Source of the DNA: a virus
Length of the DNA stretch: 23,048 bases
Virus record (IMG/VR): IMGVR_UViG_3300025141_007010
Coordinates: 1-23,048 of that record
Direction: 5' to 3' (one strand)
The notes under the pieces were generated by a model. That model was given only the letters and a program-made list of their open reading frames with translations, was not told where the DNA came from and searched no databases. A program made the translations under genes and the position numbers. Positions 2 to 19,674 of the stretch are shown one piece after another (within the stretch, counting starts at the first letter, position 1; each line of letters begins with the position of its first letter).

Positions 2-1741
2 AAGTCATTAGTTTCGGTTGAAGGTGCAAGGTTAAGTAAGGGTGGTAAGTTTCCAGACATGGATGTCTCAGGTGATGTCATAGACCCCGATGGTGATATG
101 AAAGATGAGGACAAAAAGAAGGATGCAGCCGAAATGGAAAAGGCTGACGGTAAGCGTCCTGAGGGTGTGAGTCCTACGTTAGGTGAGAGGATAGGGGAGG
201 CTTTCCCTGCGGTTAAGACCGGTATTGAAAGGCACGATAAGCTGATGAACGAGCCTAAAGGTGCAAAGGTTGCGCGTAAGAACCCTGGCAAGATGGTCTC
301 TGCAGAGGGGAAAATCATGAAGTCTTTAGTGTCTGTTCACGAAGCAAAACTAGAGAAGGGATTACCTAAGAGGGGCGAAAAAGCAGCCAGAAGTAAGATA
401 GCATCTGCTAAACGCGGAATGGTGATGGGGGTCAATGACGAAGATGTCAAAGAGAAAGACTCTGAAAACGGTGCCGAGGGTGCTAACGGCGGTAATGGCG
501 GTAACGGCGGTGGTATGGCCATGGGTATGAACAAATCTCTCGTGTCTGTACTCGGATCTAGATTAGAGAAGGGTATGGGCGATTCTAAAAAGGTTGTTCA
601 AATGCCTCCCATGGAGATTAAAGCAAAGGCTCCGAAGAAAGAGCCTAAGAAGAATGTAATTGAGTTTTCGGATGAAGAGGGCATGACCGTTTACGGACAA
701 AAACCAAAACTACTTAAAAAAGTTCAAGCAACTTTAGATTCAATGAAGATTGATTCTTCTAAAATGGCATCTAAGCGAGCACCTAAAATTGAAAAAGGAT
801 ACGAAATGAAAAAGTCGAATTGGGATGTAGCATGCAACATGCTGAAGTCTATGGAACTTAGTAAAAATGTCCCACAAATGCGAGGTCGTTCAGGTGGGAG
901 CCTTAGTATGGGTCAAAAAAGAAATCCTCCTAAAAAAGACACTGGACCAAGAGTCTATCGAGATTATAACGCACCACCAAACATGAGTAGGCCTCAGGGT
1001 CCGCCTAAGCAAATGAGTTCAGCGCCAGAAATGACTAGAGACTTTTCAAGTAGAGGTCCAGATCGGTCTAGAGTCCCAGCGAGCGAGATAAACAGGCAAA
1101 ATTTGGATAGTAATTTGGATAGTCTTAAGCAGGCAGGAAGAAAAATTGCTGGTAAGTTTATGTCTGCTCTTGGATCTAAGTCCAAGCCTAAAGAATCAGC
1201 AGTGGCTCAGTCCAAGCCTAAAGAATCAGCAGTGGCTCAGTCCAAGCCTAAAGGGTCTCAAGATGGTGTTAGACAACCAGCGTCGGATGTGTCCAAGCCT
1301 AAAGGGCCTCAAGATGGCACTAGAGGCGCAGCAATCGCTCAGTCCAAGCCTAAAGCAAGCTCTTCTAAAGCTGAAAACCTTGCTGCGGCTAAAAAGCTAG
1401 TAAAGCAAGGCGGTGTTAAAGCTCTTATAAAACTTCCATACAATAATGCGATGAGAGTAGCTTACCGAGAAGATTATAAGAAGAGAATGGCCGGTAACAA
1501 AAAATTTGAAGCTAGAATGGCTTCTCAACCAAAACCTCCTATGTCTAAGTCTTTAGACCCAGCAGTTGCTGCTCGTATGAATATGCAACCTATCAGTCGT
1601 AGGGGTCGTGGAGTAAATGCATCTACGGATAATGCTGCCCGTCAACAACTTGCAAATGGTTTTAGTACGTCGCAAAATATGCAAGTTGAAGGGGTTGGGC
1701 CTCGTCGTATTAATGGACTTCGTCCTTTGGGTAAGAAATAA
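2..1741 (+). CDS. Lysine-rich low-complexity virion-associated protein, 5' partial
   Basis: The reading frame is open to the left edge, so the true start lies outside the window. The ATG at 59 is only an internal methionine: the codons before it (2-58) already encode the same repeat found twice more inside the protein. A 14-residue unit, KSLVSV-x3-(K/R)L-x-KG, occurs at 2-43, 320-361 and 533-574. A Gly/Asn run follows 484, and Lys/Pro/Ala-rich linkers fill most of the rest, including a 30-base tandem repeat at 1181-1240. No enzymatic domain, signal peptide or membrane segment is visible. It ends 21 bases before the giant gene. By neighbourhood and composition it is probably an internal or scaffold-like virion protein, but the function is unknown. 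Confidence 0.85.
   Translation, partial: KSLVSVEGARLSKGGKFPDMDVSGDVIDPDGDMKDEDKKKDAAEMEKADGKRPEGVSPTLGERIGEAFPAVKTGIERHDKLMNEPKGAKVARKNPGKMVSAEGKIMKSLVSVHEAKLEKGLPKRGEKAARSKIASAKRGMVMGVNDEDVKEKDSENGAEGANGGNGGNGGGMAMGMNKSLVSVLGSRLEKGMGDSKKVVQMPPMEIKAKAPKKEPKKNVIEFSDEEGMTVYGQKPKLLKKVQATLDSMKIDSSKMASKRAPKIEKGYEMKKSNWDVACNMLKSMELSKNVPQMRGRSGGSLSMGQKRNPPKKDTGPRVYRDYNAPPNMSRPQGPPKQMSSAPEMTRDFSSRGPDRSRVPASEINRQNLDSNLDSLKQAGRKIAGKFMSALGSKSKPKESAVAQSKPKESAVAQSKPKGSQDGVRQPASDVSKPKGPQDGTRGAAIAQSKPKASSSKAENLAAAKKLVKQGGVKALIKLPYNNAMRVAYREDYKKRMAGNKKFEARMASQPKPPMSKSLDPAVAARMNMQPISRRGRGVNASTDNAARQQLANGFSTSQNMQVEGVGPRRINGLRPLGKK
1181..1252 (+). repeat. 30-base in-frame tandem repeat (SKPKESAVAQ)
   Basis: Two perfect 30-base copies (1181-1210 and 1211-1240) are followed by a partial copy from 1241. 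Degenerate copies of the tccaagcctaaag core recur at 1292 and 1343. Each unit encodes a Lys/Pro-rich decapeptide, so the repeat makes a flexible positively charged linker. It looks like recent slippage or recombination, because the copies are identical at the DNA level. Confidence 0.9.
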
Positions 1742-1762: not shown

Positions 1763-4700
1763 ATGGCTAAGAGAGTATACCTTGGTTCCAAGTTTTTTAA
1801 AGCTTTGTCACCAAAAGATGATGAGGAAGAAGAAAAGACTTCTGTAAACCCAGGAAACATTCAGCAATCCCCACAAACCAAGAAGGTGGGGGACGGAGTT
1901 GGTTCTCGCGGTGGGGTTACTACCACTGATGTCAGGACCAGTCCGTCTAGAGGCACACGTAACGTATATCAGTCTGAAAGAACTCCACGAAGATTAGGGA
2001 ACATAGGTGTGAAGCAAGGCGCTTCTCTCGGCAAGCCCATGTCGATGAAGATAAACATGCCTAAGCCACCTTCTTTCTCTTTAAAGCCTCCTACACCACC
2101 AAAACCGCCAAGCTTGAAGGCGTCTTTGTATTTGGGTGAAGATTTATTCTTTAAGGGCGTGGGGGATAGCCCAGAGGCTAGGACGTATAATCCTAACCTC
2201 AAAGGGGAGAGAGGTAGGGTAGGTACTCCAGGTTTAAATGTGGAGAGCTTTGCAGCCCCAACGCCTCCAGTCCAACAGAGATTGCCGGGTATGGGTACCG
2301 CTCCTACTCCTGCTCCTGAGCTTAAAGGTAAGCAGCAGGAATTACCTTTAGGTCAACCAAAAGCGACTACAACACCGCCTCCTAAGATGGAAGCGCCAGT
2401 AGGAGATTCGGAAACTTCTATGAGTGAATCTCAGGCACCTGCAAGAGGTCCTGCTCCTACAGCACCAAAACCTGCTACTACTGCGGAATTAGCACCAGAG
2501 CAAAGTGCTCCTGCACAGCCTCCAGCCGGAACTACAGAGCCACCAAAGGCCCCTGGTGGAGATCCTACAAAGCTTCCAGAAGCTCCTAAGTTGCCTAAGG
2601 CTCCTAGTATGGTGTCAAACATACCTGGTGCCAAGGAGACTAAAAGTCCTTGTAGTACAGGTATCAATCCGAGCCATAGTTATGTAGGTAAGTTCCCAGG
2701 TGCTAATGGGTGTATTTACGTTTATTCAGAAGGTAATAATTTTAACTTCAGAAACTCTGTAGATGGACATGCACACCATGATGAGGGTCAAACTTTATCT
2801 GTGCCTCATGATCATCCAGATGTTGTAAATAACAACAAGGTTCCAATACCTGAGAAGTTAAGAACACATCACGATGATACTCATATAGACTTAAATGAAG
2901 AGCATTCTAAAGGGTGGAATAAGCCGTCCACTGAGGAAGGTGGTAAGCACCACGTTGATGTGAAGCCTTATCACCCAGAGGACAATTCAAAACATCCAGA
3001 TCATCTGGCTCCAGATCATTTGGAGGCGATGAAGGCACACAAAAGTGCTTTAGATAGATTAAAGAACAACTCAGAGGAGTATCACTCAACTAGTGCAGAT
3101 GCATTACACCAAGAGGTTGGACCTCATGGTATTGAGCAGTTAAAAGAGCATCACGGGGAGTATCCTAGATCTACTCAACCACAACCGGGTAAGGCTGAAG
3201 ACTCTCGTGGTGAGATTGCAAAAGTATCTGAAACTGCAAAGCCGGGTGAAACTGCAAAAGTATCTGAGATTGCAAAGCCAGGTGAAACTGCAAAGCCAGG
3301 TGAAACTGCAAAGCCGGGTGGTGAGATTGCAAAGCCAGGTGGTGAGATTAAACACCCCCACCCAGATTTAAAAGATCCATCTATCCCTCACGATATCAAA
3401 GATATATTTAGAAATCTTCCATCACAGGACGCCCCTACTAGAGAGAAGTTTGATAAGTTAAAAGAGGCTGCTGAGAAGCTTAAGAATTATAAATACAAGG
3501 ACGGCACAAGCTTTAGTTCTGCTTTTGTTGCGGGACAGATGTTCATGAGCCATGACGTAGGCGCTGCTATCAATGGGGCTTATAAGGCATTTTCAGGGTC
3601 TATTCCTCATATTGCTCATGCGATAAAAGAGCAGAGGGATGTTAATAATAGAAGAAAGCAGGCCGAAGAAGAACACAAAGAGTTTGAGGCAGATAGAAAC
3701 ACTACAAATTCAAAAGTAGAGGACTTTGATTTTCATCATACGGATGTTCCAAATACTATTGGTGAGACTGGTCATTGGTCATCAGATCGACACAAAGAGT
3801 TTCATAGAGATCATGAAAATCTAAAGAGGTCTTATGATGAGGATAAGGAATCCGGGGCATCTGATGAGATGTTAGGACACACTTATTCACACGCTTATGA
3901 TGCTATATTAAGAAGACATAGAGCTTTAGCAGACGCAGAGGCAGGACTCCACCACCCTCACGAGACACCTAATGCAGGTGACTTTGAGGAGATGGATAAA
4001 AGACTTAACAAGTTAGGTGATGATACGGGTCTTGTGTCCAGTCAAATTGATGAGATGAAGAAAACATCTAGGAAGATGTCTAAGCAGAATCTTAGAGAGT
4101 TCCATGATGTTTTAGACCATGCGGATAGCTTTTCTGGGGATGATAAGATTGCTGCATCGGAGATAGCGTTTCAAAAAGCAAAAGCCTTGCATCGTCTTGA
4201 GCAAGAGTCCTTGAAGAAGTACAACCAGGGCGCTCCAAAAGGTGAGAAGGCGCAAAAGCGTGAAGCTTATATGGGTCCTAGAGTGTCTGTAGAAGACCAG
4301 ACTCGCAGAGAGGCTCAGAAGACTGAGGCAAGAGACCAGAAGGTTGCGGCAAAAGAGCAGGTTGCTCGTGAGAAGCAAGAAGCAAAGCTTTCAGCGGAGC
4401 AAACTGCTCAGGAAGAAGCAGAGGCTACAAGAGCAGAAGCTGTTAAAGATCTCCCTGAACCAGAAGGCGGTTGGCCAGATTATTACTTCAATGAGAAGAA
4501 GGACATGGATAAACGTAAGTTTGATCCTAATGTCCGTCCTGACCACAACATAGGATCTGGTGTACGTTTAGGTAGAGGTAAAGACAGCCACCAAGGTGTT
4601 ATAATAGGGCACAGCGTACAAGACGGAAAACATGTTTATCATGTAAAGAGGATTAATCCTGAGTATGACCCCAAAGCTGAAGAAGAATACTTTAGTAAAC

Positions 4701-7700
4701 TTCAAGCTGGGGAGATAAAAGGTGAAGCTACACCACCACCACAGAAGTTCATACGAGAGCAAGTTCCTGTGTCAGAAATGCACCAGAACGTTAAGAATGG
4801 TGTTTTCTCTCCCTCAACTCACGATTGGTACCACAGTGCAACAGATGAACAGAGAAACGATGCTTTTGAAGCGAGACATAAAGAGTTAAGAGAAGCTTTC
4901 AAAGAAGCAGAAGAAGAGAAGAAGAGAAAAGAGAAGCAAGAGTTTATAGATAGTGTTGACTTAGACAAGATGTCTAAGAGAGATCGAATCGAGTTTGGTA
5001 AGGAACACGGTAGATATCATGAGGATATAGAGCCACACCATCGAGTTAGAGATAAGACTCTGCGACAAAACAAAGGCCTTTTTGATCCAAACGGTAATCC
5101 AGAGTTTAATAAGGACACAGGCTTTAAATTCAAAGGAGAATTCAGAAAGGGGACATCGGGCCATATTAAAGACGTAAAGTATGATGAGGATGGGAATCAC
5201 GTTTATGTCGTTGATCAAGTAAACAAAGATGGTGAGGTAGAGACTAAGAATTACCCTGTCGATGCACTACATGCTCGTAACGTTATGGGTGAGCATGCGC
5301 GATGGCATCCAGACGCAGAAAAGCACAGAATTGGCGGTGATGATGAACGTCAGGCAGAGCTTGATGCTCAGGTAAAGAAGTTAGCTGGTCCAAAAGGTAA
5401 GCAGGCTGCTGAAGAGGTTGAAGAGGAACGCGGAGAGGTGGTTGTTCCTAGTGATCCAGAGGATTTTGATTTAGAGAATCCAGATCAACATTTTGAGCAT
5501 GATGAAGCTGCTAGGTCTTATGATCTTATTGATGAGGACATAGGGAATTATTCACAGACTCTTGCACAGTTCTTTGACAAACATGGCGGGGATGACTTCG
5601 AAGTACCTTATGCATATGACATCCAAGACCCAGATAAGATGCGTCAGGTATGGGGGCATTGGCTTTCTCAATCAGATTTACCACCAGAGGTACACAAAGA
5701 AATATTCCACGATATCCAAACGAAGTTTACTAACTTAAAATCTCGGATGATGGGTTTATCTGGTAAGAATGATATCGGAAAAATCTATCAGGATATAGAT
5801 GCTGGAAAGTACGATAGCGACCCTACTGGTAAAGCAAAAGCCATGGCTCGTATTCGTAACTACATGATGTTTGGTAAAGGTGGATACGTAAACTTCTCTA
5901 ATGGTTTAAAGAAACTTAAAGAAGAAGTTCGTCGATCTGTAGGTGATGAACACGCAGAGTCAATTCCGTTTGAATCTAAGAGTGGTGAGGAGCTTCAAGA
6001 GATTCACGATCAAAACAAAAAGCTCATGGGAGAAGATCTCACCCGGCAAGAAAAGAGAGAATTAAGTAGCGCACAAAACGTGATCGATAAAAATGTCGAG
6101 GGAGATGTGGTCGGTGAAGGTCAACAAGGGGCCGATGTAGTACCAATAGATTCTGGGAAAAAAGACTCTGAACAATCGCAGCCTGAAGAGGCTCGTATGG
6201 CAGCAAAGCAACAACGACCTAAAGCAACGGGGGATGCTGATGAAGTGGTTGATGAGGATGTTCCAGAAGTTAAAGCTACAGACACGCAAGAAGCAGCGCC
6301 AGAGGAAAGCGTTGATGAGGCAGAAACTACAGAAGTTGCCGAAAGCCCAGAAGAGACACCTACTAAAGATGTGGCTACGGAAGAAGAACAAAAGCCGTTG
6401 ACTAGAACAGAGGGACATGTCGGTAATGAAGTTAAGGTTCATCTGAGTGGTGGAAGGGCTAAAATAGACAAGCGCGATGCCACATACAAAGTCGTTGAGG
6501 CAGATGATATTAAGGCAAGCCACAAAGTAAGTGGTGGCGGTAAGTTTGCTGAGAATGAAGATTATGTAAAGAATGTACAGCCCAGGACATACAGTGGAGA
6601 ATCTGCGAAAGCTGTTTTAGAAAGAGCAGACAATTATGAGCCTGATCAAGTTATGAACACAGATGTGGGTCCAAATACAGGTCCACCAATGGTGACGGAA
6701 GATGGGCACGTTCTTGGCGGTAATAGTAGGACTATGACTCAAAAGCATATGTACGATACAGATCGTGGCGATGCAATTAGAGATCACCTGGCTGAGAACG
6801 CAGAAAAGTTTGGCTTGAACCCAGAAGAGATAGCTAAATTCAAAAACCCAATTCTCGTAAGAGAGTTGAAGGATGTGCATTCGGAAGGTACCGACTCGGA
6901 AACTCTGAATCAGTTGGCCAGCAAGATGAACGTAGCTGAAGCCATGGGTATGAAGCAATTTGAGGTTGCTACGGACTTATCTAAACGTTTAAACGAAAAG
7001 AAAATATACGATAGGATTGCGGAGTCATTCGACACAGATACGCACAACACGATAAATGATCTGCATATATCTGGCGCTGGAAAGCAGTTTAAAGACGAAT
7101 TAAAAGAGGTCTTTGGTACAAAGTCCGATGAGTATACTGATAAGGATGGAAAGCTTAATACTCAAGGTAGAAAGTTAGTTGAGGACGCAGTAGCTTCTAG
7201 ACTGGTAGATGACCCAAATCTGTTTGGACGCATGACGGGTTCCGCTGGTGAAAAATTAAACAAGATAGCCATACCTGCCCTTTTAATTAGTAAGCATGGT
7301 GATGAGCACAACTTAGACTCTGATCTAAAGCATTCCTTTGATGCTGTAGATAAGGTAGCTAGGTATAGAGATGGATTACCATCAGCCGAACAGAAAAAGT
7401 TCAATAACATGTCCAGTGAGGAGCAGCTTCAAGAGGCTTTGGGTGAGAAGACAAAAGACATGTTTGCTGAAGATCATCCTCTTACAAGCAATTCAAGAGC
7501 CAGGACCCTGTACCATATAATCCAAAACGAGACTCCTAATAATCTTAAAAAGATATTCACAGGTCTTGCTGATTCTATTCGACAGACTGGTGATGACGCA
7601 CAAACAGACTTGTTTGCTGGCGCAGGGGGAGAGGCTGCTCCGAAAACCACTTCAGATCATATTGTAAGGTCGTATGAAAAGACCATGGATCAAGACATGC

Positions 7701-10700
7701 CAGAAGAGTATGGCAAGCCAGAAGATCCAAAGAAAGAGGCCCCAAGCGCAAAGAAGACAGCTAAGAAGATAAAGAACCTTCAAGGAAATGTTAAAAAGGA
7801 TAAGGCTGTAGAAGAACACAAGTCTGTTTTGAATGATTACTCTGAATCAGACAATATAGATGATACAACAAAACACTTTGAAAAGATGATTAGCATGGCT
7901 AGAGATCTAGTCCCCAACGTTGCAAATGAGGAAGCTCAACAGGTAATAAAAGAGTTCATAGATAAAGGTGAAATATCTGACAAGTTTTTGGAAGAGTTAA
8001 AGTCATCTAACTCTATTGTTACTCCAAAGTCTGAACTCACAGAAGATGATAAAAAAAGAAAGACATTAGAAAGCTTTTTTAGTGGTGGTGGGCGAAGAGT
8101 TTCTATTGAAGAGATAAAGAAGAATAAGCCTGAAACAATAACAAACCACTATGGCATGATAGCTAAATTTTTACAGGAAAGAGGCGGACATTTTCCAGTA
8201 CATAAGCACTTTTCAAAAGATGGTGGTGTGAGTAACCAGTACCTAATTTACAACACTCCTGAGGCTAAAAAGATCTTCAAGGTTAAAGAGATTGGTGAGG
8301 GCGATAACACGACTTTACTTGTCCATGGTCTACAGGACGATTGGAAGGAGCACATACCGGAAGCGGCAGTTAAATCCGCAGGGATAGATTTAGATAAGCC
8401 TGTTGCCTCCAGGACAAAGCCAAGCGCAGAAAAGACAGCTAAGGATATAAAGAACCTTCAAGGAAATGTTAAAAAGGATAAGGCTAAACAAAAGTCTGAT
8501 TCTAGATCAGAGCCGAAGACTATTGGAGCCACCAATGATTTAGATACTAAATTAAATGATGACGGGACAATAACGCTTTATCACAGAACAAACTCTAAAG
8601 CTGCCGACCAAATAGTTAGTGGCGGTAAGTTTACGTCAAAACATAATAAGGGTGAGGCTTTCTTCTCTACTAGGCCCGACGAAGAAGCGTCTGGTTATGG
8701 TGATTCAGTAGTATCTCTGAAGATAAACCCAGAACATGTAGGTCTTGATGATGAGTTCCCAGGCGGTGAGGTTCACGTAACAATTGATCCAAAACATCAC
8801 GGTAAGATGCAGGACATACAGAGTGTTGGCGATGGAGAAGATTGGGAGGGCGCTGGGTTTTCCTCACGACCATCGGATAAGGCCGTGGTAAGTCTTCATG
8901 ATAAGACTGTACAATCTAATAAATTATCAAATCAAGAGCCTTTAAAAGAAGAGACAGAACGACTTAATAAGTTGAAGTCTTTGATGGATAGTAGAGGTCT
9001 AGAGTCAAAAGTTTCTGAAGAGAAGCCCAAGGCGGAAGAGAAGCCCAAGGCGGAAGTAACTGCCCGTTACCAAGCGTACCTAGACGCTACGGAAGCCGAT
9101 GGGAAGAAGCCTAGCAGCATCGACTTTATGGCATGGACTAACAAGAAGTGGTCCGAGTACGAAGCCGAAGTAGGGCCGTTACCAAAGACCAAGACGAAGA
9201 AACTTCAGGGCGAGTTCGATAAGTGGCTCGCGTCTGGACCTAAGACCGAAGAGAAGCCCAAGGCGGAAGCGGGCGGTCCAGCACCTAACATCGCTACTGA
9301 CAAGAAGCGCAAGGTGCCTAGCTTGGACGGCGCTACTTATCACGACTCTTTAGAGGTCGATGATTACCCTTACGGGCGCTCGCGCACGAAGGCTAAGTTT
9401 TCCGTCGAGACGATGAAGAACGGCAAGCAGCGCGGTGTCATGCAGACCAAGAACCCGAAAACGGGCGCTTGGAACAAGCCGAAGAAGACAACCTCTGGCA
9501 GCAAAGTCAAGATCGTTCAGGTAGATGGTAGGACGTATATTGCAACCGAGGAACGCGGGGCTATTCACTTACAAAGCGCGGCGGGTTTCAAGTCCGAGGG
9601 GTACGTGAGAGGAGAGTCTGGATCTCATTATGAAGAGGGAGTTGGAAACCGGTTTGTTCCTAACGCTCAGGCGTCTGACCCCGGACATCATGAACTTTAT
9701 GTAGGTATTCACGGGAAGGGAGAAGTTGAGCGTCTTGTCGAAATGGGTCATAAGTTGAAAGACGTGCCAGGCGCATCAGCATCTGAAGTAGCGCCAAAGA
9801 CATCTAAAAAGATAGATGATCTAAAGTCAAAAGTCTCTGAAGAGAAGCCAAGTGTAGAACAGGCAGGACAGGAAGTAGATTTAAAACATACTTACAAAGA
9901 CCTTCATCCAGACGCAGTTCATTTTGATGAAATGGATTCAAATGAGAAATATGTTGGGTGGGAAAAAGTTGGCGATACTTGGACTATAGATAGGGGTTAT
10001 CAAGGAAATTACTTGAGAGGTGATGAAGGTGGTAAATCATATGTTCTTGATAAATTAGATAGTTCTAGGCCATACGCTTATTTTAAGGATGGAGTTAATC
10101 CTAATGATGTGCCTTCTAGTGGAGAAACTCCTGAAAAGAATAACGATCAAAATATTATAGATAATTATCATACTGAAGACCCTGATGCAGCAAAGGCTTT
10201 GCAAGCTAGGGCGCAAGAACTATTACCCGGAGTTAGAACGCAAGAATCTCTAGAAGTCGTGGCCACAGCAGCAGAAAACGGTGGCAACCTACCAAAAGAT
10301 TTTGTTGATCGAATGAAGCGAGAAAATAGAGTCTCTGAGGCGAAACCTAAAAATACATCCAAGACAAGGACTAGAAAGGCTCCAGAGAATTTCACAGTAT
10401 CTACATCAAGTGAGTTTCACAAAGACCCTGAAAAAGGGCTGAGAACTTGGACACACTCTAATGGAGATGTTCATGTGGTAGAGATGAGCAAAAGACCTGG
10501 TAAGGGTAGATACACTGTCTTTGCAAAAGACTCGGATGGAAATTTAATTTCTCCAAGTGCCCACGGTAAACTGAATGATGCAATTGCTTCAGCCAATAGG
10601 GAGGCTGAGAGAGGTCCTATCCAGTCTCAAAAAGCGTATGAAAAAAAGTTAGCTGAACTTAGAAAAGAGGCGATTTTAAAAGAGTCTAAGTCTAAAGTAG

Positions 10701-11368: not shown

Positions 11369-11369
11369 C

Positions 11370-13532
11370 ATGGCAAAAGGCATAAAGGGAATTCCTCCAG
11401 TTCCGTCTCAGAAATCTCCAAAGAAGTGCGTAAAGACAGTTGCTCTGAGTAGTGGTCGTCCTGAGTACATCTGCCCCGCGTCTGGTGGTAGGGGTGCTGT
11501 TGAGAGGCTTGGTAGGCTTCCTGTTAGGCCAGAAGACGTTTCTAGGAAGATGGTAGAACGTCAGATAGCCTCTCCCGAGGAGGTAAAACACCCTAAAGAG
11601 CGGTTGGTTGCAGAAGCTGGTCCTAAACTACCAAAGACATTGCACTTTAAAGATCTGAAAGAGGCTGAAGAGGACACCCCAGATACCATGCATTTCGATG
11701 ACCCTAAAGAGTCTAAAGGGTCTAAAATAGACAAGGGGATTAATCTTTTTGGGCAGTTTAATGTTAGTCGGCAGGAATATTACTTAGATGAATCTTTGAT
11801 GTCGAAAGCTATGGACTTCACTATGAAACCCGCTGGGACATTAATGGGTGCTAAACCTCCAAAGTCTAATGTTCCAAAGAGAGAACGTGACTATGCGAAG
11901 AAAACAGGCCTTCGCAGAATGCCAAGTCCACCAGAGTCAAGAAGGGCTGAGCAAAGAGACTTTGCTAAGCAAATAAGAGACTTAGTAAGCACGTTTAACT
12001 TTATTAAAGACGACCCCGGAGTTGCTGCTTCGGAGGCGGGTAAAGCTATTTTAAATGATATTAAAGAGAATCCATACGAGACTGCTCTTGATATTGCCAT
12101 GGCATTTGTACCATTACCTGGAGGGCAGTCAAAAACTATCCTTCGTCTAGGTCAGTGGGCAGCTAAAGCAAAAAAAGCCATACAGAAAGTAGATAAGGCA
12201 GGCGTTGTTAATAGGGCTTCGAAGGCTAAAAAAGTATATAGAAACGCTGCAAACATGGATAAAATAAAAAGTCCTAAAAAGGCGTTTGAGGTCCTTTCCG
12301 GTGGTGGAAAATCGACCGCACCTACAGGTAAACTCACTCTTGCTCCTAAGCAGGCCAGAAAGAAAGTGGCCACTCCGTCTAGAAAAAAGACTAAGACGTT
12401 GTCTGACATTAGAGGGCGTAAGCAAGGTAGAGGTATTGATAGGCTTAGAGAAGAGTCAAAAGCTGCTTCAAAAAGAAAAACCACCTCTCAGGCTGGGAAG
12501 AAAGTGCGTGGCGATGCTAGTGGTAAGAAAAGACTTTCGGGTAAAGAAAGACTTTCTGACATACGAAGTAAAAGACAAGCTGGCGGAAGAGTAAAGCAAG
12601 AGCCTCGGTACGAAAAAAGAGGCGCTGCAGATCAAAAGCCTAAAACTGACTTAAAGATTAAGCCAAAAGCTGATCCTAAGGATAAGCCTAAGTTAGATCC
12701 GCAGGTAGAGCCAAAGGAAAAGAAATTTCCAAGACCGTATGTACCTACACCGGATTACTCCCCGTTTTTTCCGGGACCGGAAAAGAAACCACAAGTGGAG
12801 CCTTCTAAAGACCCACAAGTGGATCCCTCTAAAGACCCACAAGTGGATCCCTCTAAAGACCCACAAGTGGATCCTTCTAAAGAACCACAAGTGGAACCCG
12901 CACCGGCTCCAGCGCCAAAACTAGATCCTGCGTCTAAGATAGAGACAGAGAAGGTGCCAGAGCCTAAGACTAAGCGAGAGACTAAGCGAGAGACTAAGCG
13001 AGAGACTAGAAGGTCTCCAGGAGAACCTGTTAAGAGAACTAGAGATCTTGTTTCTCAAACGTCTAGACCACGTCGCGCTAAGGCCGCAGCACCAAAAAGA
13101 GCAGAGGCTGTTGCTTTAAAAGAGCGTAGTGCTAAGCCTTTATCTACAAAAAGAGGTAGTGTATCAAAGCCGAGTGCTAGTCGAACAAAGAAAGCTAAAA
13201 AGATTTCAGATCGATATAGAGAGATCGGTAAGAAAGGTAAGCAGAAGTTTAAGGACATCGAGAAGCCACGGGCGTCAGTTCGCGGCGGAAAGAGCAGCCG
13301 ATTCGCAGATACCGATAAGGCTAAAAAGTTTAAGCCTAAGAAAAGAAGTAAGTTTCAAAAGAGTGTCGAAGATAACTTCTCAAATCCCGTGATTAAAAGT
13401 GCTTCGTATGTGAAGCCATTTGCCGATAGGGTATTGAATAAGAAGATGTCTTTGAAAGATGCTTTGGATAGAGTGCCCTGGTTCATGCAAGATGATTTAT
13501 TAAATTACCTTAGGGATAAGAAGAAGAAATGA
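11370..13532 (+). CDS. Basic low-complexity virion-module protein (721 residues), function unknown
   Basis: The ATG at 11370 is preferred; it comes one base after the giant gene's stop (taaCatg). A GTG at 11361 would overlap that gene. The N-terminus has a Cys pair in 'KKCVKT...YICPAS'. A tag-like YLDESLMSKA lies at residues 138-147. Two similar HFxDxKE stretches occur near residues 91 and 110. The only hydrophobic part is around residues 232-265 (AMAFVPLPGG, then a basic amphipathic helix). The remainder is strongly basic and probably disordered, with two LSDIR repeats, 24-base and 12-base tandem repeats, and KSVEDNFSNPVIKS near the end, where a more ordered C-terminus finishes 'VPWFMQDDLLNYL'. 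The charge would suit DNA contact in the capsid. No enzymatic domain seen. Confidence 0.85.
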   Translation: MAKGIKGIPPVPSQKSPKKCVKTVALSSGRPEYICPASGGRGAVERLGRLPVRPEDVSRKMVERQIASPEEVKHPKERLVAEAGPKLPKTLHFKDLKEAEEDTPDTMHFDDPKESKGSKIDKGINLFGQFNVSRQEYYLDESLMSKAMDFTMKPAGTLMGAKPPKSNVPKRERDYAKKTGLRRMPSPPESRRAEQRDFAKQIRDLVSTFNFIKDDPGVAASEAGKAILNDIKENPYETALDIAMAFVPLPGGQSKTILRLGQWAAKAKKAIQKVDKAGVVNRASKAKKVYRNAANMDKIKSPKKAFEVLSGGGKSTAPTGKLTLAPKQARKKVATPSRKKTKTLSDIRGRKQGRGIDRLREESKAASKRKTTSQAGKKVRGDASGKKRLSGKERLSDIRSKRQAGGRVKQEPRYEKRGAADQKPKTDLKIKPKADPKDKPKLDPQVEPKEKKFPRPYVPTPDYSPFFPGPEKKPQVEPSKDPQVDPSKDPQVDPSKDPQVDPSKEPQVEPAPAPAPKLDPASKIETEKVPEPKTKRETKRETKRETRRSPGEPVKRTRDLVSQTSRPRRAKAAAPKRAEAVALKERSAKPLSTKRGSVSKPSASRTKKAKKISDRYREIGKKGKQKFKDIEKPRASVRGGKSSRFADTDKAKKFKPKKRSKFQKSVEDNFSNPVIKSASYVKPFADRVLNKKMSLKDALDRVPWFMQDDLLNYLRDKKKK
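12303..12322 (+). repeat. 20-base exact repeat shared with 14972-14991 (GGKSTAP)
   Basis: The 20 bases at 12303-12322 recur exactly at 14972-14991 in the transglycosylase gene, in the same codon phase, encoding GGKSTAP in both. In each protein it sits at the junction between an ordered part and an Ala/Lys/Thr-rich linker. It may be a scar of, or substrate for, recombination between neighbouring genes. Confidence 0.85.
12789..12897 (+). repeat. 24-base in-frame tandem repeat (PQVDPSKD)
   Basis: Five copies with starts at 12789, 12813, 12837, 12861 and 12885, differing at a few positions. Each encodes eight residues of the type PQV(D/E)PSK(D/E). This is a Pro-rich spacer in the basic protein. 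Confidence 0.92.
12969..13008 (+). repeat. 12-base tandem repeat (TKRE)
   Basis: Three perfect copies of actaagcgagag (12969-13004) plus the start of a fourth. It encodes a run of alternating basic and acidic residues (TKRE). Confidence 0.9.
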
Positions 13533-15631
13533 TGTTTAGAAATGACATTTCCGATGGCTTGTGGTTAGAAGATCGTTCCAATTCGGACGTTTATATGGAC
13601 GACTCTATCTATAAGGGCGTTGGAGATGTTACATCTAGACAACCACCCCCCATGCAAACACCTAAACGAGGTAAAATTTATGTGTTTGGGGATTCCCAAA
13701 CCGGTGGGATGCGACGAGCCATAAGGAATTACTATAAAAGTGAAGGGTATGCCGAAGGCGATATAATTATAAAATACAAAGATAATGGTAAATATAAAGA
13801 TATCGATAGGTTTGTGTCTGAACATACATACAAACCTGGTGATCAAATCATTATTGCGTCTGTAGGTGGTAATGAAGTTGGATATAGAGACCCTAGAGGA
13901 AGATCGAAATCTTTAGTTAATTCATTAAAAAGACACCAAAACAATAATGTTGGTGTGCGTGTTTTTGGACTTCCTCTAGGTAATAGATCGAAGTCTTATA
14001 ACGTAAGAAGAGAAATGGATGTTACTCAAAAAGAGATTTTCAAAGACCTGAGTTATACGTCCACTCTTGCGTCATCAATTGGTGTGCCAGGAAAAATTGG
14101 CAACGTACACTATACTGATGGTCAACAGTTGTTCGATAAGACAGTGAAGCCAGGACTATCTAGACCTGCATCAAAAACCCCAAATATTAAGCCAGCAACG
14201 CCTCCTAAAGTAGCGAGTGCTAGGGGCACAGCACCTGCTCAGACAGCGGGAACTAGGAACCCAACACCTGCTCAGACAACACCTGCTCAGACAACACCTG
14301 CTCAGACAGCACCTGCTCAGACAGCACCTGCTCAGACAGCACCTGCTCAGACAGCAGCAAAGGGGGCCGGTAACGTCCCAGCCGGACTTCGTAAGTACAG
14401 TAAAGAGGTTGAAGCAGCTAGTGCTGAGTTTGGTGTCCCAGCACCTTTCATATATGCAATTATGCAGACAGAGAGTAATGGTAATCCTCTTGCTGGAAAA
14501 GAAAAACACGCAAGAAATGTAGCGCGTGGGAAACCTAATAATCAAGGCCTTGGGCTGATGCAGGTTATTAGGTCTACGTTTAAGGGTACTACTGAAAGGA
14601 TGCGGGGAGAAGGTATTGCAAACGTGCCGGTAGACACTGAAGAGGCGCAGTATGATCCTACAAATAGTATAAGAGTGGGAACTTTTATTCTTTCGAGACA
14701 CTTGAAACTTGCTAGAAAGAGACACCAAGAGGCTCGTAACAATCCACAGTTAGCAGAGTCTTTGGCGGCAATGTACTATAAAATGGGACCGGGAGAAGGT
14801 AAACCAGAGAGGCCTGGGGCGAAGCTTTACATCCGTGAACAGCGTAAAAAACATGGTAATTTTAACCCGGAAACTTGGGATAAAGACCCAAAAAGTAAAA
14901 CTGGACACGTCAGAGGTGGTGGGGCTAGTTACGCTGCTGTTACCCGTAAACGTAGAAATCGATATGCAACAGGTGGAAAATCGACCGCACCCAAGACAAC
15001 TACTACAGCACCAAAAGCTCAAGCACCAAGAGCAGAGGCGTCAAAAGCACCGGCACCTAAGCCAGCGCCAAAAGCGCCAGAGCAGAAGCTTTTAAAACCT
15101 AAAAGATACTCAGGTGAGAGGACTGATTTACCTGCTAGACGGCCTGGGGAACACCCAACTAAGTATCGTGGTATATCTAGGAAGAAGACTCGTCCAGATC
15201 GAAGCACTGCGGTTATAGGTCCAAGAAGGCCTAGAATGCATGAGGGTCAGGTCGAGAGGTTTGAGAGTAAGTTACCTAAGATAGGCGTTATTCGAAGAAC
15301 TAAACATCAGAAAGATCTTGATAAGATCATAGAAAAAATGCCCAAGAGTGGGGAGACCTACCCTAAGAAGCAAGACGGGTCTCCTAAACAGTACCCGAAG
15401 GGCGAGTCTCAAATTCCTCCTTTAAGTATGGCTCCAAAGAAAACTTCTCCCGCAAGTAGAGCTATGGCTTCCGTTAAAAGACAGCCAGCGCCCAGTCAGC
15501 CTGTTCAGGGTCAAAATGCAGCTTCTGCTGGTCAAAGAGCGATGGAGCAGATATCATCCGTTAAGCAACAACCAACCAAACGTCCAAGTCGGTTTAAATC
15601 AGAATCATTTACTCCGACTCGCACAGTATAG
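13529..15631 (+). CDS. SGNH-like / SLT lytic transglycosylase fusion, probable virion muralytic protein
   Basis: The ATG at 13529 overlaps the previous stop (ATGA); a second ATG follows at 13532. Residues 22-33 carry the tag-like YMDDSIYKGVGD. Residues about 48-205 resemble a GDSL/SGNH hydrolase: FGDSQTGG (S56), SVGGNEV (N115) and VHYTDG (H194). The Asp usually three residues before the His is replaced, so activity is uncertain. A TPAQT repeat linker (about 246-275) leads to an SLT domain (about 287-490): MQTESNGNP (E315, likely the catalytic acid), GLGLMQV (340-346), YDPTNSIRVG and AMYYKMGPG. This family cleaves the glycan strands of peptidoglycan. The rest is a Pro/Ala/Lys-rich tail. In a phage late cluster it would locally open the wall during DNA entry; such enzymes are often internal or tail-tip virion proteins. 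Confidence 0.88.
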   Translation: MMFRNDISDGLWLEDRSNSDVYMDDSIYKGVGDVTSRQPPPMQTPKRGKIYVFGDSQTGGMRRAIRNYYKSEGYAEGDIIIKYKDNGKYKDIDRFVSEHTYKPGDQIIIASVGGNEVGYRDPRGRSKSLVNSLKRHQNNNVGVRVFGLPLGNRSKSYNVRREMDVTQKEIFKDLSYTSTLASSIGVPGKIGNVHYTDGQQLFDKTVKPGLSRPASKTPNIKPATPPKVASARGTAPAQTAGTRNPTPAQTTPAQTTPAQTAPAQTAPAQTAPAQTAAKGAGNVPAGLRKYSKEVEAASAEFGVPAPFIYAIMQTESNGNPLAGKEKHARNVARGKPNNQGLGLMQVIRSTFKGTTERMRGEGIANVPVDTEEAQYDPTNSIRVGTFILSRHLKLARKRHQEARNNPQLAESLAAMYYKMGPGEGKPERPGAKLYIREQRKKHGNFNPETWDKDPKSKTGHVRGGGASYAAVTRKRRNRYATGGKSTAPKTTTTAPKAQAPRAEASKAPAPKPAPKAPEQKLLKPKRYSGERTDLPARRPGEHPTKYRGISRKKTRPDRSTAVIGPRRPRMHEGQVERFESKLPKIGVIRRTKHQKDLDKIIEKMPKSGETYPKKQDGSPKQYPKGESQIPPLSMAPKKTSPASRAMASVKRQPAPSQPVQGQNAASAGQRAMEQISSVKQQPTKRPSRFKSESFTPTRTV
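14266..14355 (+). repeat. 15-base tandem repeat (PAQTx)
   Basis: Six consecutive copies of acctgctcagaca(a/g)c, with one isolated copy at 14233. It encodes a PAQT(T/A) linker joining the SGNH-like and transglycosylase domains, and is probably variable in copy number. Confidence 0.92.
14972..14991 (+). repeat. 20-base exact repeat shared with 12303-12322 (GGKSTAP)
   Basis: Second copy of the repeat, located just after the transglycosylase domain at the start of the Thr/Ala/Pro-rich tail. Confidence 0.85.
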
Positions 15632-15642
15632 TGAGTTAAAAT

Positions 15643-17643
15643 ATGGGACTTTTAGATAAAGCATTGGGAAAGGTATTTTCTCCTATCATTGAAGATAGAG
15701 CTATGGAAATGAGTAAAGCTTGGCGTCAAATTTCACCAGATGATGCCAAGAGAAATGCAAAGTCTATGTTATATGACCCAATGAGTCTTGTTTACTCAAT
15801 GGGATACAAAGATAGAAGAAGTAATCTTAGCTATGACGTATTGAAGCAAATGTCTACGCAGCTTGGTATCCTGGCTGCAATTATTAATACTAGAGTAAAT
15901 CAAGTTGCTACTTTTACATCCCCGTACAGAAGAACTCGAAACATTGGTTTTGAGATAAAACACAAAGACAGAGAGCATAAGTTAACCAAAAGTGAAAAGA
16001 AGTTTATTCTAGAGTTAGAGTCTTTTATTTCTAATTGTGGTAAATATTCTCCAAATAGCTATTCGAATAAACCTCGTGATAATTTTGATCAGTTCACTAG
16101 AAAGGTGATTCGAGATCGAATGGTTTATGATCAGCTTTGTATGGAAGTTGTCCCAGATAGGCGTGGGTTGCCTTACGAATTTGTTGCTGTTGATGCGTCT
16201 ACGATACGTCTCGCAGCAGATCCCGTAGCAAATGAGAATCGAGATAAATACAAAGAAGATAAAGAGCTAAAGCCCTTTATGAATCGTTACGGCGGACTAG
16301 ACCTGAGTTACCCTACTGCGGACCCGACTAAGGGGACTCAAGTATCTCACGTGCAGGTATGGAAAGGCTCTATTATACGAGCGTATAAACCAGAAGAATT
16401 GGCTTTTTGCATCGCTAATCCAAGAACCGATGTGCATGTAAACGGGTACGGGCACTCTGAGCTTGAGCAGTTGGTAAACACAATTACTTCTCATCTTTGG
16501 GCAGAGGAGTACAATCGAAACTTCTTTAAGCAAGGCGCTGCTCCTAAGGGTATTCTTAATATTCGTGGGGATAATATTGCTCCAGAGCAATTAGAAGCTT
16601 TCAAGCGTCAGTGGATATCGAACGTAACTGGTGCTCAAAACGCTTGGCGAACTCCTATTATGCAGAGTGAAGAGATTCAGTACCTTAATATGCAAGGTAC
16701 CAATCTTGATATGGAGTATTCCAGGTGGTTGGACTACTTGATTCGCATAACATGCGCTGTATTCCTTATATCTCCAGAGGAGATTGGGTTTAGCCTTTCT
16801 GCTGGTGGTATGCAGCAGCCGCAGTTCGAGACGAATAATGAGTGGAAGATTAAAGCCTCGAAAGATAGAGGCTTGCGACCACTTCTTAGATTCTATGCTG
16901 ACTCTCTCAATCGACATATCATAGATAAGATTGATGATCACTTTTACCTTGATTTTGTTGGTCTTGATGAGTTGACAGAGAAAGAGCGAATTGAGTTGCG
17001 TCAGCAGCAGGTTCAGTTCTTTAGAACGATTAATGAAATTCGCTCTGATGAAGACTTAGACCCAGTTGAGAATGGGGATATCATTATGAATCCCATATAT
17101 CTTCAAAAAATACAGATGGAGCACTCTTTTAAAGTTGAAGCAGAACAAAGAAAAGAACAGAAAAAGATGCAGGCTGAGCAGCAAAAAATGCAGAAAGAGC
17201 AAGTTGCTCAACAGAAAGAGATGCAGCAGCAGCAACTTCAAATGCAGCAGCAGCAAGTTCAACAACAGGCTGATATGCAACAACAACAGGTTGATATGCA
17301 GCAGCAGCAAGTTAGTGGTCAGGAAGGTCAAGAAGCCGCACCGACCCCTGATCCTGCCGCTATGGGATTACCCGCTGGAGATGCACCACCTGAAGAGGGA
17401 GAGCCGCCTGCAGAGGAGGTACCGCCTGTTGAAGATGGGTCAGTTGAGGGAGAAGAGCCACCTGCTGAAGAGGGGGCAGTTGAGGGGGAAGAGCCACCTG
17501 CTGAAGAAGTAGCGCCTGAAGAAGGAGAATCTCCTGATGGGGCTGATGATGTAAGTAGGGAGGAGATGCAAGAGTTTATAAATTCTTTGCCACCAGATCA
17601 ATTACGGGGTAAAGATATCGAAGATGAAGAGGAGCCGGGATAA
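15643..17643 (+). CDS. Phage portal protein
   Basis: 666 residues. The start is the ATG 11 bases after the previous stop, with a weak gtgag ribosome site. Residues about 40-480 have the layout of a portal protein: 'LSYDVLKQMSTQLGILAAIINTRVNQVA' near the N-terminus, 'DGR/DRR-G-PYEFVAVDASTIR' in the middle, and 'AFCIANPRTDVHVNGYGHSE' followed by 'EEYNRNFFKQGAAPKG' (about 252-310). These match the large-myophage branch of HK97/SPP1-like portals. Portals form the dodecameric ring at one capsid vertex through which the terminase pumps DNA, and they nucleate head assembly. The C-terminus is unusual: a Gln/Met-rich coiled-coil-like part (about 500-566), then an acidic Pro/Glu tail (about 570-666). 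The stop overlaps the next start (TAATG). Confidence 0.93.
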   Translation: MGLLDKALGKVFSPIIEDRAMEMSKAWRQISPDDAKRNAKSMLYDPMSLVYSMGYKDRRSNLSYDVLKQMSTQLGILAAIINTRVNQVATFTSPYRRTRNIGFEIKHKDREHKLTKSEKKFILELESFISNCGKYSPNSYSNKPRDNFDQFTRKVIRDRMVYDQLCMEVVPDRRGLPYEFVAVDASTIRLAADPVANENRDKYKEDKELKPFMNRYGGLDLSYPTADPTKGTQVSHVQVWKGSIIRAYKPEELAFCIANPRTDVHVNGYGHSELEQLVNTITSHLWAEEYNRNFFKQGAAPKGILNIRGDNIAPEQLEAFKRQWISNVTGAQNAWRTPIMQSEEIQYLNMQGTNLDMEYSRWLDYLIRITCAVFLISPEEIGFSLSAGGMQQPQFETNNEWKIKASKDRGLRPLLRFYADSLNRHIIDKIDDHFYLDFVGLDELTEKERIELRQQQVQFFRTINEIRSDEDLDPVENGDIIMNPIYLQKIQMEHSFKVEAEQRKEQKKMQAEQQKMQKEQVAQQKEMQQQQLQMQQQQVQQQADMQQQQVDMQQQQVSGQEGQEAAPTPDPAAMGLPAGDAPPEEGEPPAEEVPPVEDGSVEGEEPPAEEGAVEGEEPPAEEVAPEEGESPDGADDVSREEMQEFINSLPPDQLRGKDIEDEEEPG

Positions 17644-17996
17644 TGAAGCAAGAGCAAAAGTCTATGAACGTAGACGAAGATGAAATGGAAGAAGGGAAGG
17701 CCAAAGCAGGTGAGCCACTAGCCAAACGTTATGGCTATGCATCTAGCGCACAGCAGTCTGTCGGAGTTGCTCCTACGCAAAGACAGCGCCCAGGTGGGAA
17801 CGTCTCTTCTAGTAATGCACCTGCAATGATGAAGTCTATTGAGTCCACACACGGTTCACAGTTAGCTAAAAGCTTTCCTGTAGGTAGAACTTGTGGCATA
17901 TGCAATCGTGTTTCAAAGTCTATTGACGGGTCTTTATGCCAAGATTGTAATAAGGCAATTAGTATTAGCAAGTGGCACAACTCACACTTAGGTTAG
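17643..17996 (+). CDS. Small zinc-ribbon-like protein of the head operon
   Basis: 117 residues, translationally coupled to the portal through TAATG. The first 75 residues are polar and probably disordered. Residues about 64-77 (17832-17873) are KSIESTHGSQLAKS, which aligns with the 14-residue repeat of the first protein in the window. The C-terminus has a C-x2-C-x11-C-x2-C metal site (CGIC...CQDC), typical of a zinc knuckle or ribbon. The function is unknown; the position just after the portal suggests an assembly or packaging accessory. Confidence 0.8.
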   Translation: MKQEQKSMNVDEDEMEEGKAKAGEPLAKRYGYASSAQQSVGVAPTQRQRPGGNVSSSNAPAMMKSIESTHGSQLAKSFPVGRTCGICNRVSKSIDGSLCQDCNKAISISKWHNSHLG

Positions 17997-18005
17997 GGAG
18001 AAACA

Positions 18006-18449
18006 ATGTTTGACGATAAAGCAAAGACTAGAGTGCCTTTAAATTCTCCAATGCATAAGGATAGAAATCCTTCGTTTAGAGCAAATAAAGTACATGAGTC
18101 TAAGTATGCTTCCCGCGATGCCGTATGGCAACCTGGAAACTCTATTCTGCGTAGATACGCTAATGGTATGCTAGATGTACAAGATGCTGCATCCAAGGTG
18201 GTTGAGTGCATTGGTAAGGTGCGAGATGGTGGGTTTGTTAATGAGATGGAAAAGTGTGTCCTTAGCCTGGTTATCCCAGGTATGGATATGCTGGTCCCAA
18301 GGTCTATTGCAGCTACCAAATTGAGATTGTCCCCAGAGGAGATCTTAAAAGTTCGTATGCTTGTTAGTGCTAAAACTAATGAGATGCTTAACTATAATGG
18401 TGGTAGGGGTGGCGGATCTACCCCAATGAGAACCGTAACTGTTGGGTAA
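18006..18449 (+). CDS. Hypothetical protein of the head operon (147 residues)
   Basis: The ATG at 18006 is preceded by a good ribosome site (agggagaaa, 17995-18003). It has a polar N-terminus, then a helical middle ('YANGMLDVQDAASKVVECIGKV', 'PEEILKVRMLVSAKTNEML') and a Gly-rich end. No family recognised. It lies between the zinc-ribbon gene and the next unknown gene and is probably co-transcribed with both. Confidence 0.8.
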   Translation: MFDDKAKTRVPLNSPMHKDRNPSFRANKVHESKYASRDAVWQPGNSILRRYANGMLDVQDAASKVVECIGKVRDGGFVNEMEKCVLSLVIPGMDMLVPRSIAATKLRLSPEEILKVRMLVSAKTNEMLNYNGGRGGGSTPMRTVTVG

Positions 18450-18450
18450 C

Positions 18451-19068
18451 ATGTCTAGACACTACGTTTTTGAAGATATTTTCAAAGGTATAAGGGCTGC
18501 AGGAACTGGTGCGCCTTATTTTCGCGGTAAAGTTGGTGGCCAACAGGCTGGCGAAATGGGCGGTCTTTATGTTGGTGATCAGAAGGCTAAATTTGGCCCT
18601 CGTGGTGGAAAGATTAAAAAGATTAGTCTTACTACAGGTAAGCCCATCTACTACAAGAAGTGGCAGCCAGGTAGTGGGGCTGCAGCCCCTAACATAGCTA
18701 AGCCTTCTGCAGGTGGTGGCACTCCTGACGGGTACCAAGTATACCAAGAGCATGCACGTCACGTGATTGGTAAGACTGGTAGCGGTAAAGATATTCACGC
18801 AAGGTCTAACATTAACGCTACTAAGCATTATGCTTGGGATGACCATAGAGATGCGAGCCACGCACACTTCTCTTTGACTCATTACCTTATGAACATGATC
18901 CGCGACCGTAAGAACAAGGGTAAGAAGACTGAAGGTCTTGAGAGATTGATGAATTCTCATGCAAAGTTTGCCCTTCACCATAAGAAAGAAGCCGTTAGAG
19001 ATATGCTTCACGGCAAGCTGAAGTCTAAAACGCAAGAGGACTTGGGTAAACGAAAGGCTCCAAAGTAA
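18451..19068 (+). CDS. Hypothetical basic protein with N-terminal tag-like motif (205 residues)
   Basis: The ATG at 18451 lies one base after the preceding stop; a TTG at 18442 would overlap that gene and is less likely. The protein begins MSRHYVFEDIFKGIRAAG, whose YVFEDIFKG (residues 5-13) fits the short pattern shared with the large upstream proteins. It continues with Gly-rich 'GGQQAGEMGGLYVGDQ', 'FGPRGGKIKKIS' and 'TTGKPIYYKKW', and a His-rich helical C-terminus ('NATKHYAWDDHRDASHAH'). No known domain recognised. Its stop overlaps the next start (TAATG). Confidence 0.8.
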   Translation: MSRHYVFEDIFKGIRAAGTGAPYFRGKVGGQQAGEMGGLYVGDQKAKFGPRGGKIKKISLTTGKPIYYKKWQPGSGAAAPNIAKPSAGGGTPDGYQVYQEHARHVIGKTGSGKDIHARSNINATKHYAWDDHRDASHAHFSLTHYLMNMIRDRKNKGKKTEGLERLMNSHAKFALHHKKEAVRDMLHGKLKSKTQEDLGKRKAPK

Positions 19069-19253
19069 TGAAAGAGAATTACGTCGTAGATCCATCACAA
19101 GAGATTGCGAAGTCGTTGTCTAAGTCTATTTCAGATGATGGAAGTGTTTCTAAAGTCGCAGTAAAAATAGCTCTTCTGAAAAGCTTACCTAGAGAAAATA
19201 ATATTAATAGAATATTTAACAGGATATCCGTTGAACGAGCACATGAAGAGTAA
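19068..19253 (+). CDS. Small hypothetical protein (61 residues)
   Basis: Coupled to the previous gene by TAATG and overlapping the next gene by 11-23 bases. It is short, helical and rich in K-S pairs (IAKSLSKSIS, LLKSLPRE). No domain recognised. Being in frame and translationally linked to genes on both sides makes it likely to be real. Confidence 0.65.
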   Translation: MKENYVVDPSQEIAKSLSKSISDDGSVSKVAVKIALLKSLPRENNINRIFNRISVERAHEE

Positions 19254-19674
19254 GATTGATGACCACCTAAAGAAGTTGTCTGAGAAAAAACCTCTTGAAG
19301 AATACTGTACAGATTGTGGGGCTTGCTGCAGACCATCAGTAATTATAGCGGATGGTGGGGAACCAAAATTTAGGGTTCTTCTGAAGAACTTGTATTGTAA
19401 GTTTGCAGATGTTAAAGATGAAAAAAGTAAGTGTTCAGTGTATAAAGACAGATTTAACAAAGCACCTTGGTGTGCGAACTTGAAAGAAATGGTAATTCAA
19501 GGTATAGCACCAGGGGATTGTCCGTATATAACTGAGTTGGATGGTTATAGGCCGTCTGTTGATTTAAATGACACAGAATATAAGGATTTATTACCTTTTT
19601 TGAAGATTGGATTAAAAAGTGGAGACACTTCCCCGATAGATAAAGAAGATCTCGATAAATTTTTAGATTCTTAG
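19231..19674 (+). CDS. YkgJ-like cysteine-cluster (metal-binding) protein
   Basis: The start is either TTG 19231, with an aggat ribosome site about eight bases upstream, or ATG 19243, which gives four fewer residues. The motif EYCTDCGACC (C-x2-C-x2-C-C at residues 26-33 from the TTG) is followed by further single cysteines in LYCKF, SKCSVY, PWCANL and GDCPYI. This is the layout of the YkgJ/CxxCxxCC family, whose members are thought to bind zinc or an iron-sulfur cluster. The biochemical role of the family is unclear, and finding it inside a head-assembly operon is unusual. The gene ends just before the promoter region. Confidence 0.8.
   Translation: MNEHMKSKIDDHLKKLSEKKPLEEYCTDCGACCRPSVIIADGGEPKFRVLLKNLYCKFADVKDEKSKCSVYKDRFNKAPWCANLKEMVIQGIAPGDCPYITELDGYRPSVDLNDTEYKDLLPFLKIGLKSGDTSPIDKEDLDKFLDS

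Follow-up and report, generated by a model that had tools for sequence, protein, structure and literature searches.

The phage T4 protease gp21 cleaves behind L/I-x-E, and IPIII is directed to the T4 head by its ten N-terminal residues (PMC9026906). In phage P1, 30 N-terminal residues of DarB are enough to bring a reporter into the head (PMC9024508), and the prohead protease of SPN3US uses A-x-E (PMC10052503). The DNA analyzed here, an IMG/VR fragment of 23,048 bases (the window, by which we mean this whole stretch), contains the head module of an SPO1-related phage (Herelleviridae). A sequence-only reading had noted that otherwise unrelated proteins of this module share a short tag, and had suggested that the tag could be a capsid-loading signal analogous to that of the T4 internal proteins or a maturation-protease site. 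We consider it very likely that the motif represents cleavage sites of the prohead protease encoded at 19,775–20,554, with its N-terminal Y-L copies probably acting like the T4 capsid-targeting sequence.

Six tags in the head module

Genes and gene starts were called with a simple home-made caller; all features described are on the + strand, and an arrow marks a predicted cleavage bond. The head genes are those for the portal, the head maturation protease, two scaffold proteins and the start of the major capsid protein, and the coat protein is 44–50% identical to those of SPO1 and Lysinibacillus phage LysYB1. 5' of these genes lie a truncated ORF 1, a 3,201-residue ddrB-like ParB protein, a basic protein and an SLT transglycosylase. 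The 3,201-residue giant (1,763–11,368; ddrB-like ParB domain, Pfam PF18763, E 8.6e-19) resembles the polyvalent (Dar-type) injected proteins in being a multi-domain ddrB-ParB giant whose gene lies just upstream of the head cluster, and it is predicted to be capsid cargo, as is the transglycosylase (13,529–15,631; Pfam PF01464, E 2.5e-13). A search of isolated phages with the N-terminal 212 residues of the giant gave no match.

All six tag copies proposed from the sequence are real and lie at the residues given for them. The giant has YLGSKFFK↓A near its N-terminus (residues 6–14; 1,778–1,804), to which MVYLKDSLFK↓A and MSANLYLDSKLFK↓G correspond in the giants of two relatives, G001 and G002, respectively; its second copy is YLGEDLFFK↓G (residues 123–132; 2,129–2,158), and HYLDLEK↓A is present in the N-terminal region of the G001 giant. 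Motif scanning placed a third copy, FLNENLIK↓G, in its C-terminal region (residues 3144–3152; 11,192–11,218) and YLDESLMSK↓A in the basic protein (residues 138–147; 11,781–11,810). The N-terminal tag of the transglycosylase, YMDDSIYK↓G (residues 22–30; 13,592–13,618), recurs in relatives as FLDDSLHK↓A (L011, L069) and, in an SLT protein of G002, as MRLYLDIDLYK↓A. Finally, YVFEDIFK↓G is the N-terminal tag of the 205-residue protein (residues 5–13; 18,463–18,489) and is conserved among its orthologues, with F11 and K12 invariant in 11 of them and a following linker of varying length. The counterpart of the giant's 3144 segment is internal in L011, L069 and G002; in G001 only, it lies near the N-terminus of a separate 384-residue ORF (alignment Z 12.6). 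A 72-residue G002 protein that appeared to start with this tag was rejected as an artefact of start choice, because its reading frame has no stop back to the contig start and is the continuation of the ORF at the contig end.

As originally written, the pattern is too narrow to define the motif. It fits three of the six copies exactly (FLNENLIKG, YMDDSIYKG and YVFEDIFKG); YLGEDLFFKG and YLDESLMSKA have one residue too many, and YLGSKFFKA is without the acid. A relaxed pattern has exactly six matches in the 7,610 residues of the window versus 0.08 in composition-preserving shuffles; as this pattern was built to hold the six, independent testing comes from the relatives. In G001, it matches the giant at residue 3 and a 220-residue protein at residue 4; in G002, the giant and a 206-residue protein both match at residue 6, and the two genomes have few other matches. 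Further such N-termini in G002 and more distant relatives are MRLYLDLENLSKA, MNLYLDLSKA, MNLYLSAENMEKA, MRLYLREDLAKS (G005) and MRLYLDIDLYKA (G002), the last belonging to another SLT transglycosylase. Bacteroides phage DAC16 was considered as a further member and left out, as its 44 matches (27 expected) are spread genome-wide. Separately, three DAC16 proteins that otherwise differ (MT074137.1, 24382–45682) have in common an LNLSSF-like stretch at the N-terminus that runs up to K↓G or K↓A; this may be a further tag, in a phage less closely related.

A lysine site in head-module proteins

The six tags are one form of a commoner signal, [LIVM]xK[AGS], which also occurs in the portal, the protease, both scaffolds, the major capsid protein and ORF 1. 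In the window and about 100 related contigs, head-module proteins have the core of this signal, [L/I/V/M]-x-K with S, A or G next, close to the N-terminus. The relatives comprised 76 contigs with a related coat protein, of which six long ones (101–169 kb) were taken whole, and a held-out set of 34 contigs from which N-termini resembling earlier ones had been removed. Among the 94 head-module genes of the six genomes, 62 have the core site in residues 1–30 of their product (14 expected); among the 1,055 non-head genes, 77 do (95 expected). Across the 76 loci, genes as far as the capsid gene, itself counted, have it in 382 of 602 cases (83 expected), and those downstream in 32 of 452 (42 expected); collapsing the genes to homology families left 39 of 91 upstream versus 10 of 124 downstream. 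Proteins encoded downstream of the capsid gene, in the neck and tail region, are not enriched. About one third of the head-module genes have no site within their first 30 residues.

Position-specific preferences were determined on 284 head N-termini made non-redundant at 45% N-terminal identity, with shuffles that keep composition. Of the 20 residues scanned at P1, lysine alone is strongly enriched (164 of 284 versus 37 expected), while the controls arginine (24 versus 22), glutamate (26 versus 26) and aspartate are not. P1' is enriched in A, S and G only, P3 is mainly L, I, V or M, and acids are enriched at P4 and P5; together, these preferences have the shape of a protease specificity. No enrichment was seen in the remaining 1,002 proteins of the six relatives (78 versus 95 expected). 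The held-out contigs gave the same result, with lysine again standing out alone (62 of 157 versus 17.1 expected) and counts for the remaining residues equal or close to those expected. Only a minority of head proteins have the extended Y-L form, which is present in 22 of the 284 head N-termini versus none of the 1,002 others. In head proteins, sites are 7-fold enriched in residues 1–30, compared with 1.0 downstream; the C-termini of head proteins are also enriched (76 of 312 versus 28). Because the site is short, single internal sites will often be due to chance. Of the outcomes that the sequence-only reading had named as counting against it, two were checked, equal frequency of the pattern in non-virion genes and lack of conservation in relatives; the frequencies are not equal, and the pattern is conserved.

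The protease and its predicted substrates

The proposed enzyme is encoded in the same module (19,775–20,554; PHROG head maturation protease, E 6e-47). Residues H63, S120, K158 and K179 are invariant in 42 homologues, H63 and S120 being the conserved catalytic residues, and an AlphaFold2 model with a confident core at approximately residues 25–155 has herpesvirus assemblins as its best PDB matches. The protease carries sites of its own: PISK↓A (K codon 19,817), DIVK↓S (K158, 20,246) and NK↓SLAAG (K179, 20,309–20,311). K158 and K179 lie behind the catalytic domain and look like self-cleavage sites. The segment after K179 (20,300–20,420) imitates the N-arm of the coat protein after its cut (22,124–22,260), both following KxLxAGY...GG..L..ESL; the likeness reaches an alignment Z of 16–19 in several contigs (L018, L020, L133, L137) and in SPO1, and is weaker in the window (Z 5.7) and in G001 (Z 1.7). 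Possibly, this shared segment is a common docking or autocleavage element. We also observed a small cysteine-rich protein adjoining the protease gene (19,240–19,674), which recurs in relatives and has a weak, below-cutoff match to CxxCxxCC (zinc- or iron-chelating).

For the coat protein, the predicted site coincides with the known maturation bond of the family. NELTK29↓A30 (22,118–22,129) aligns with VVK24↓S25 of phage K and with the first residue of chain B of PDB 9row; in 9row, 9rox and 9roz, the phage K-type coat chain lacks the first 24 residues of the gene product and starts with S25, the chain start in 9row being the depositors' choice. The site is conserved in nearly all relatives with an intact N-terminus, and their coat proteins share a (D/E)LxK-A-L-(S/E)-A-G-Y segment that aligns with EDVVK24-S25 of phage K. 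In SPO1 and LysYB1, the portal, protease, scaffold and coat protein all have a site within 30 residues. The protease, scaffold and coat protein also have one in Exiguobacterium phage EalM-132, for which no portal site is listed within 30 residues, and in phage K, whose portal site is near residue 48. The lysine rule would therefore seem to hold for the protease family as a whole rather than for one contig. The portal chain of phage 812 was considered as proof of a second cut and rejected, as it is deposited at full length (563 residues). No statement of lysine specificity or of SPO1-like head N-termini was found in the largely open-access literature searched; the lysine rule of SPO1-like phages may in part be already known.

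Two further proteins in these phages start in a similar manner. SPO1 gp2.12 (L236:643–1266), annotated as ParB-like and adjoining the large terminase, has the tag-like start MDLHIDLNK↓SG and may be an unrecognised injected protein. In EalM-132, a hypothetical 419-residue protein near the head genes (L237:1433–2692) starts MYLYINGDNLTK↓SL, the same kind of tag.

Other sites in the window lie in the N-terminus of the portal protein (15,643–17,643; Pfam PF04860, PHROG portal), with LLDK↓A (K codon 15,658) and EMSK↓A (15,715); in a 117-residue protein, where a motif scan found the pair AMMK↓S and QLAK↓S (17,826–17,873); and in a 61-residue protein with three sites versus 0.4 expected, among them QEIAK↓S and SLSK↓S (19,104–19,127). 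The densest are in the scaffolds. Scaffold protein A (20,554–21,300; PHROG scaffolding, E 9e-6) has 8 sites with 1.2 expected, and scaffold protein B (21,312–22,025; PHROG scaffolding, E 5e-7), which starts with FEDEIVK↓S and LDEILSK↓A, has 13 with 1.0 expected, as would be expected of scaffolds that are cut to pieces. By comparison, the long bodies of the giants are poor in sites (5 versus 13.2 expected in the window, 3 versus 15.9 and 6 versus 10.8 in other giants). The window giant also has a C-terminal site, VEK↓SLNLYVSV (11,333–11,365), with VKK↓SLWLYVTC and VEK↓GLGLYVSV in relatives. C-terminal tails of the forms K↓SLxLYVxx or K↓SLFQSEYFIEV recur in head proteins, namely giants and transglycosylases, and a 113-residue protein has the similar tail EKSLRLFVRG.

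ORF 1, whose 5' end is cut by the contig, has 10 sites versus 4.6 expected (p 0.0125), those within 32–574 including ARLSK↓G (K codon 38), KIMK↓S (320) followed by AKLEK↓G (356), and GMNK↓S (533) followed by SRLEK↓G (569), and a repeated linker KSLVSVxxxxLxK↓G. Paired sites in the family include KK↓SNWDEFDLFK↓G, DK↓SHWDAFDLEK↓G and, in the window, MK↓SLVSVHEAKLEK↓G. In the orthologues in G001 and G002, such pairs lie at domain borders: a stand-alone 52-residue phage family matches residues 1–44 of the G002 relative, where K43↓S44 is a predicted site, and a 69-residue family starts at residue 476 in G002, just after K475, and at residue 170 in G001, just after K169. The family (window 2–1741; L098:15749–18547 in G002; L087:1989–3494 in G001) is polyprotein-like, joining small phage domains that are found alone elsewhere (phrog_2423, phrog_16160) via linkers with paired predicted sites. 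On the basis of the two orthologues, ORF 1 fits a polyprotein that would be cut into its domains.

Proposed mechanism, alternatives and known systems

In our working model, a protease of the SPO1 type would recognise [L/I/V/M]-x-K and cut before S, A or G. The capsid protein, portal, scaffold, protease and cargo (for example the ParB-domain giant, the transglycosylase and the 205-residue protein) carry the site near an end; they would be built into the procapsid core and then be trimmed there, after the lysine, by the protease. The N-terminal form on cargo, (Y/F)(L/I/V/M)xxx(x)(L/I/V/M)xK↓(G/A/S), would probably dock on the core or scaffold and be removed after use, and internal copies in multi-domain proteins (ORF 1, perhaps the giant) would be separators. 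Scaffold fragments and tags would then be cleared, and the cargo would stay and be injected with the DNA. The existence of the site, its restriction to the head module, its conservation and its position-specific preferences were computed directly, and from these comparisons we strongly infer cleavage at the sites in the window phage; the module's own protease presumably does the cutting. That the tag loads proteins into the capsid is suggested by the T4 and P1 DarB analogies together with the Y-L form, present in 22 of 284 head N-termini versus 0 of 1,002 others. The two halves of the sequence-only reading fared differently: the maturation-protease half gains strong comparative support from the position-specific enrichment, the mature coat start in the PDB, the restriction to head genes, the site-filled scaffolds and the conservation in relatives, and the loading half leans on the T4 and P1 analogies. 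Loading gives no account of the internal copies (residues 123 and 3144 of the giant, 138 of the basic protein) or of the many copies in the scaffolds.

The same data could be read as a cleavage site with no targeting role, proteins entering by other contacts and anything inside being trimmed. We regard this as a serious alternative, though less probable than a dual role: the conserved core is just P3, P1 and P1' plus an acid at P4/P5, scaffold and capsid proteins carry the same core and need no import tag, and the upstream aromatic preference is modest outside the Y-L subclass. However, unrelated cargo proteins of several lineages share the longer Y-L form at residues 2–15, which exceeds what a bare site needs, and N-terminal capsid-targeting signals exist in T4 and P1. 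An uncleaved docking peptide for the scaffold, portal or coat protein, for example a short amphipathic helix, would agree with the tag of the 205-residue protein, for which a low-confidence model gives a short helix within a disordered tail, but the strict A/S/G after the lysine, the lack of tolerance for arginine, the many scaffold copies, the depletion in giant bodies and the matching coat-protein start all point to cutting; we consider it improbable. Chance or shared descent of a common N-terminal segment or composition is more improbable still, to the point that we give it almost no weight. Some head families are homologous among contigs and K, S and A are abundant in many head proteins, yet the enrichment was obtained with composition-keeping shuffles, redundancy removal at 45%, collapsed families and unenriched R, E and D controls, and the tagged ParB-domain giant, transglycosylase and small proteins have no common domain.

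Returning to the preferred reading, cleavage by the prohead protease with T4-like N-terminal tags, the text rule [LIVM]-x-K↓[SAG] near a terminus may name proteins that are packed in SPO1-like heads and are probably injected, the majority of them without an assigned function. Should the tags hold loading information, a widespread phage group would have a capsid-packaging signal in them. More tentatively, and with somewhat less than even confidence, we suggest that one three-residue lysine code serves both as an import-and-trim tag on most head-internal proteins and as a separator in polyproteins (ORF 1, the giant), with the procapsid protease dicing precursors into injected proteins; were this so, the injected proteome could be read from the genome sequence alone.

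Among described systems, the window module is homologous to the SPO1/Twort type (Herelleviridae) in protease, portal, scaffold and coat protein, with the coat protein predicted to be cut at the same lysine. Unlike the SPO1 module used for comparison, it has a large block of tagged cargo upstream of the portal (giant, basic protein and transglycosylase) and a tagged 205-residue gene between portal and protease. Like P1, with its very large injected protein DarB and N-terminal signal, the window has a giant with a Dar-type (ddrB-ParB) domain; this likeness is one of description, and no K↓G/A/S site is reported for DarB in the text consulted (PMC9024508). The proteases of giant phages (SPN3US gp245, phiKZ gp175) likewise have a three-residue code, N-terminal propeptides and many head substrates, but P1 is glutamate there and lysine here. 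The closest parallel in design is T4. As in T4, a short N-terminal peptide with a hydrophobic P3 and a charged P1 is common to unrelated proteins, here judged head-internal by gene position; the tag ends in the motif of the phage's own protease ([LIVMF]xK↓[GAS], with the core as at the coat site), and the scaffold is predicted from sequence to be cut many times and the cargo near its ends. Unlike in T4, P1 is lysine and not the glutamate of the gp21 motif L/I-x-E (E, 26 versus 26 expected; K, 164 versus 37), the peptide is of the Y-L type, and copies also lie inside multi-domain proteins. The window tag would work like the T4 tag but outside the T4 sequence family, and the module would repeat the T4 design, with hydrophobic P3, charged P1, shredded scaffold and tagged cargo, with the charge reversed.
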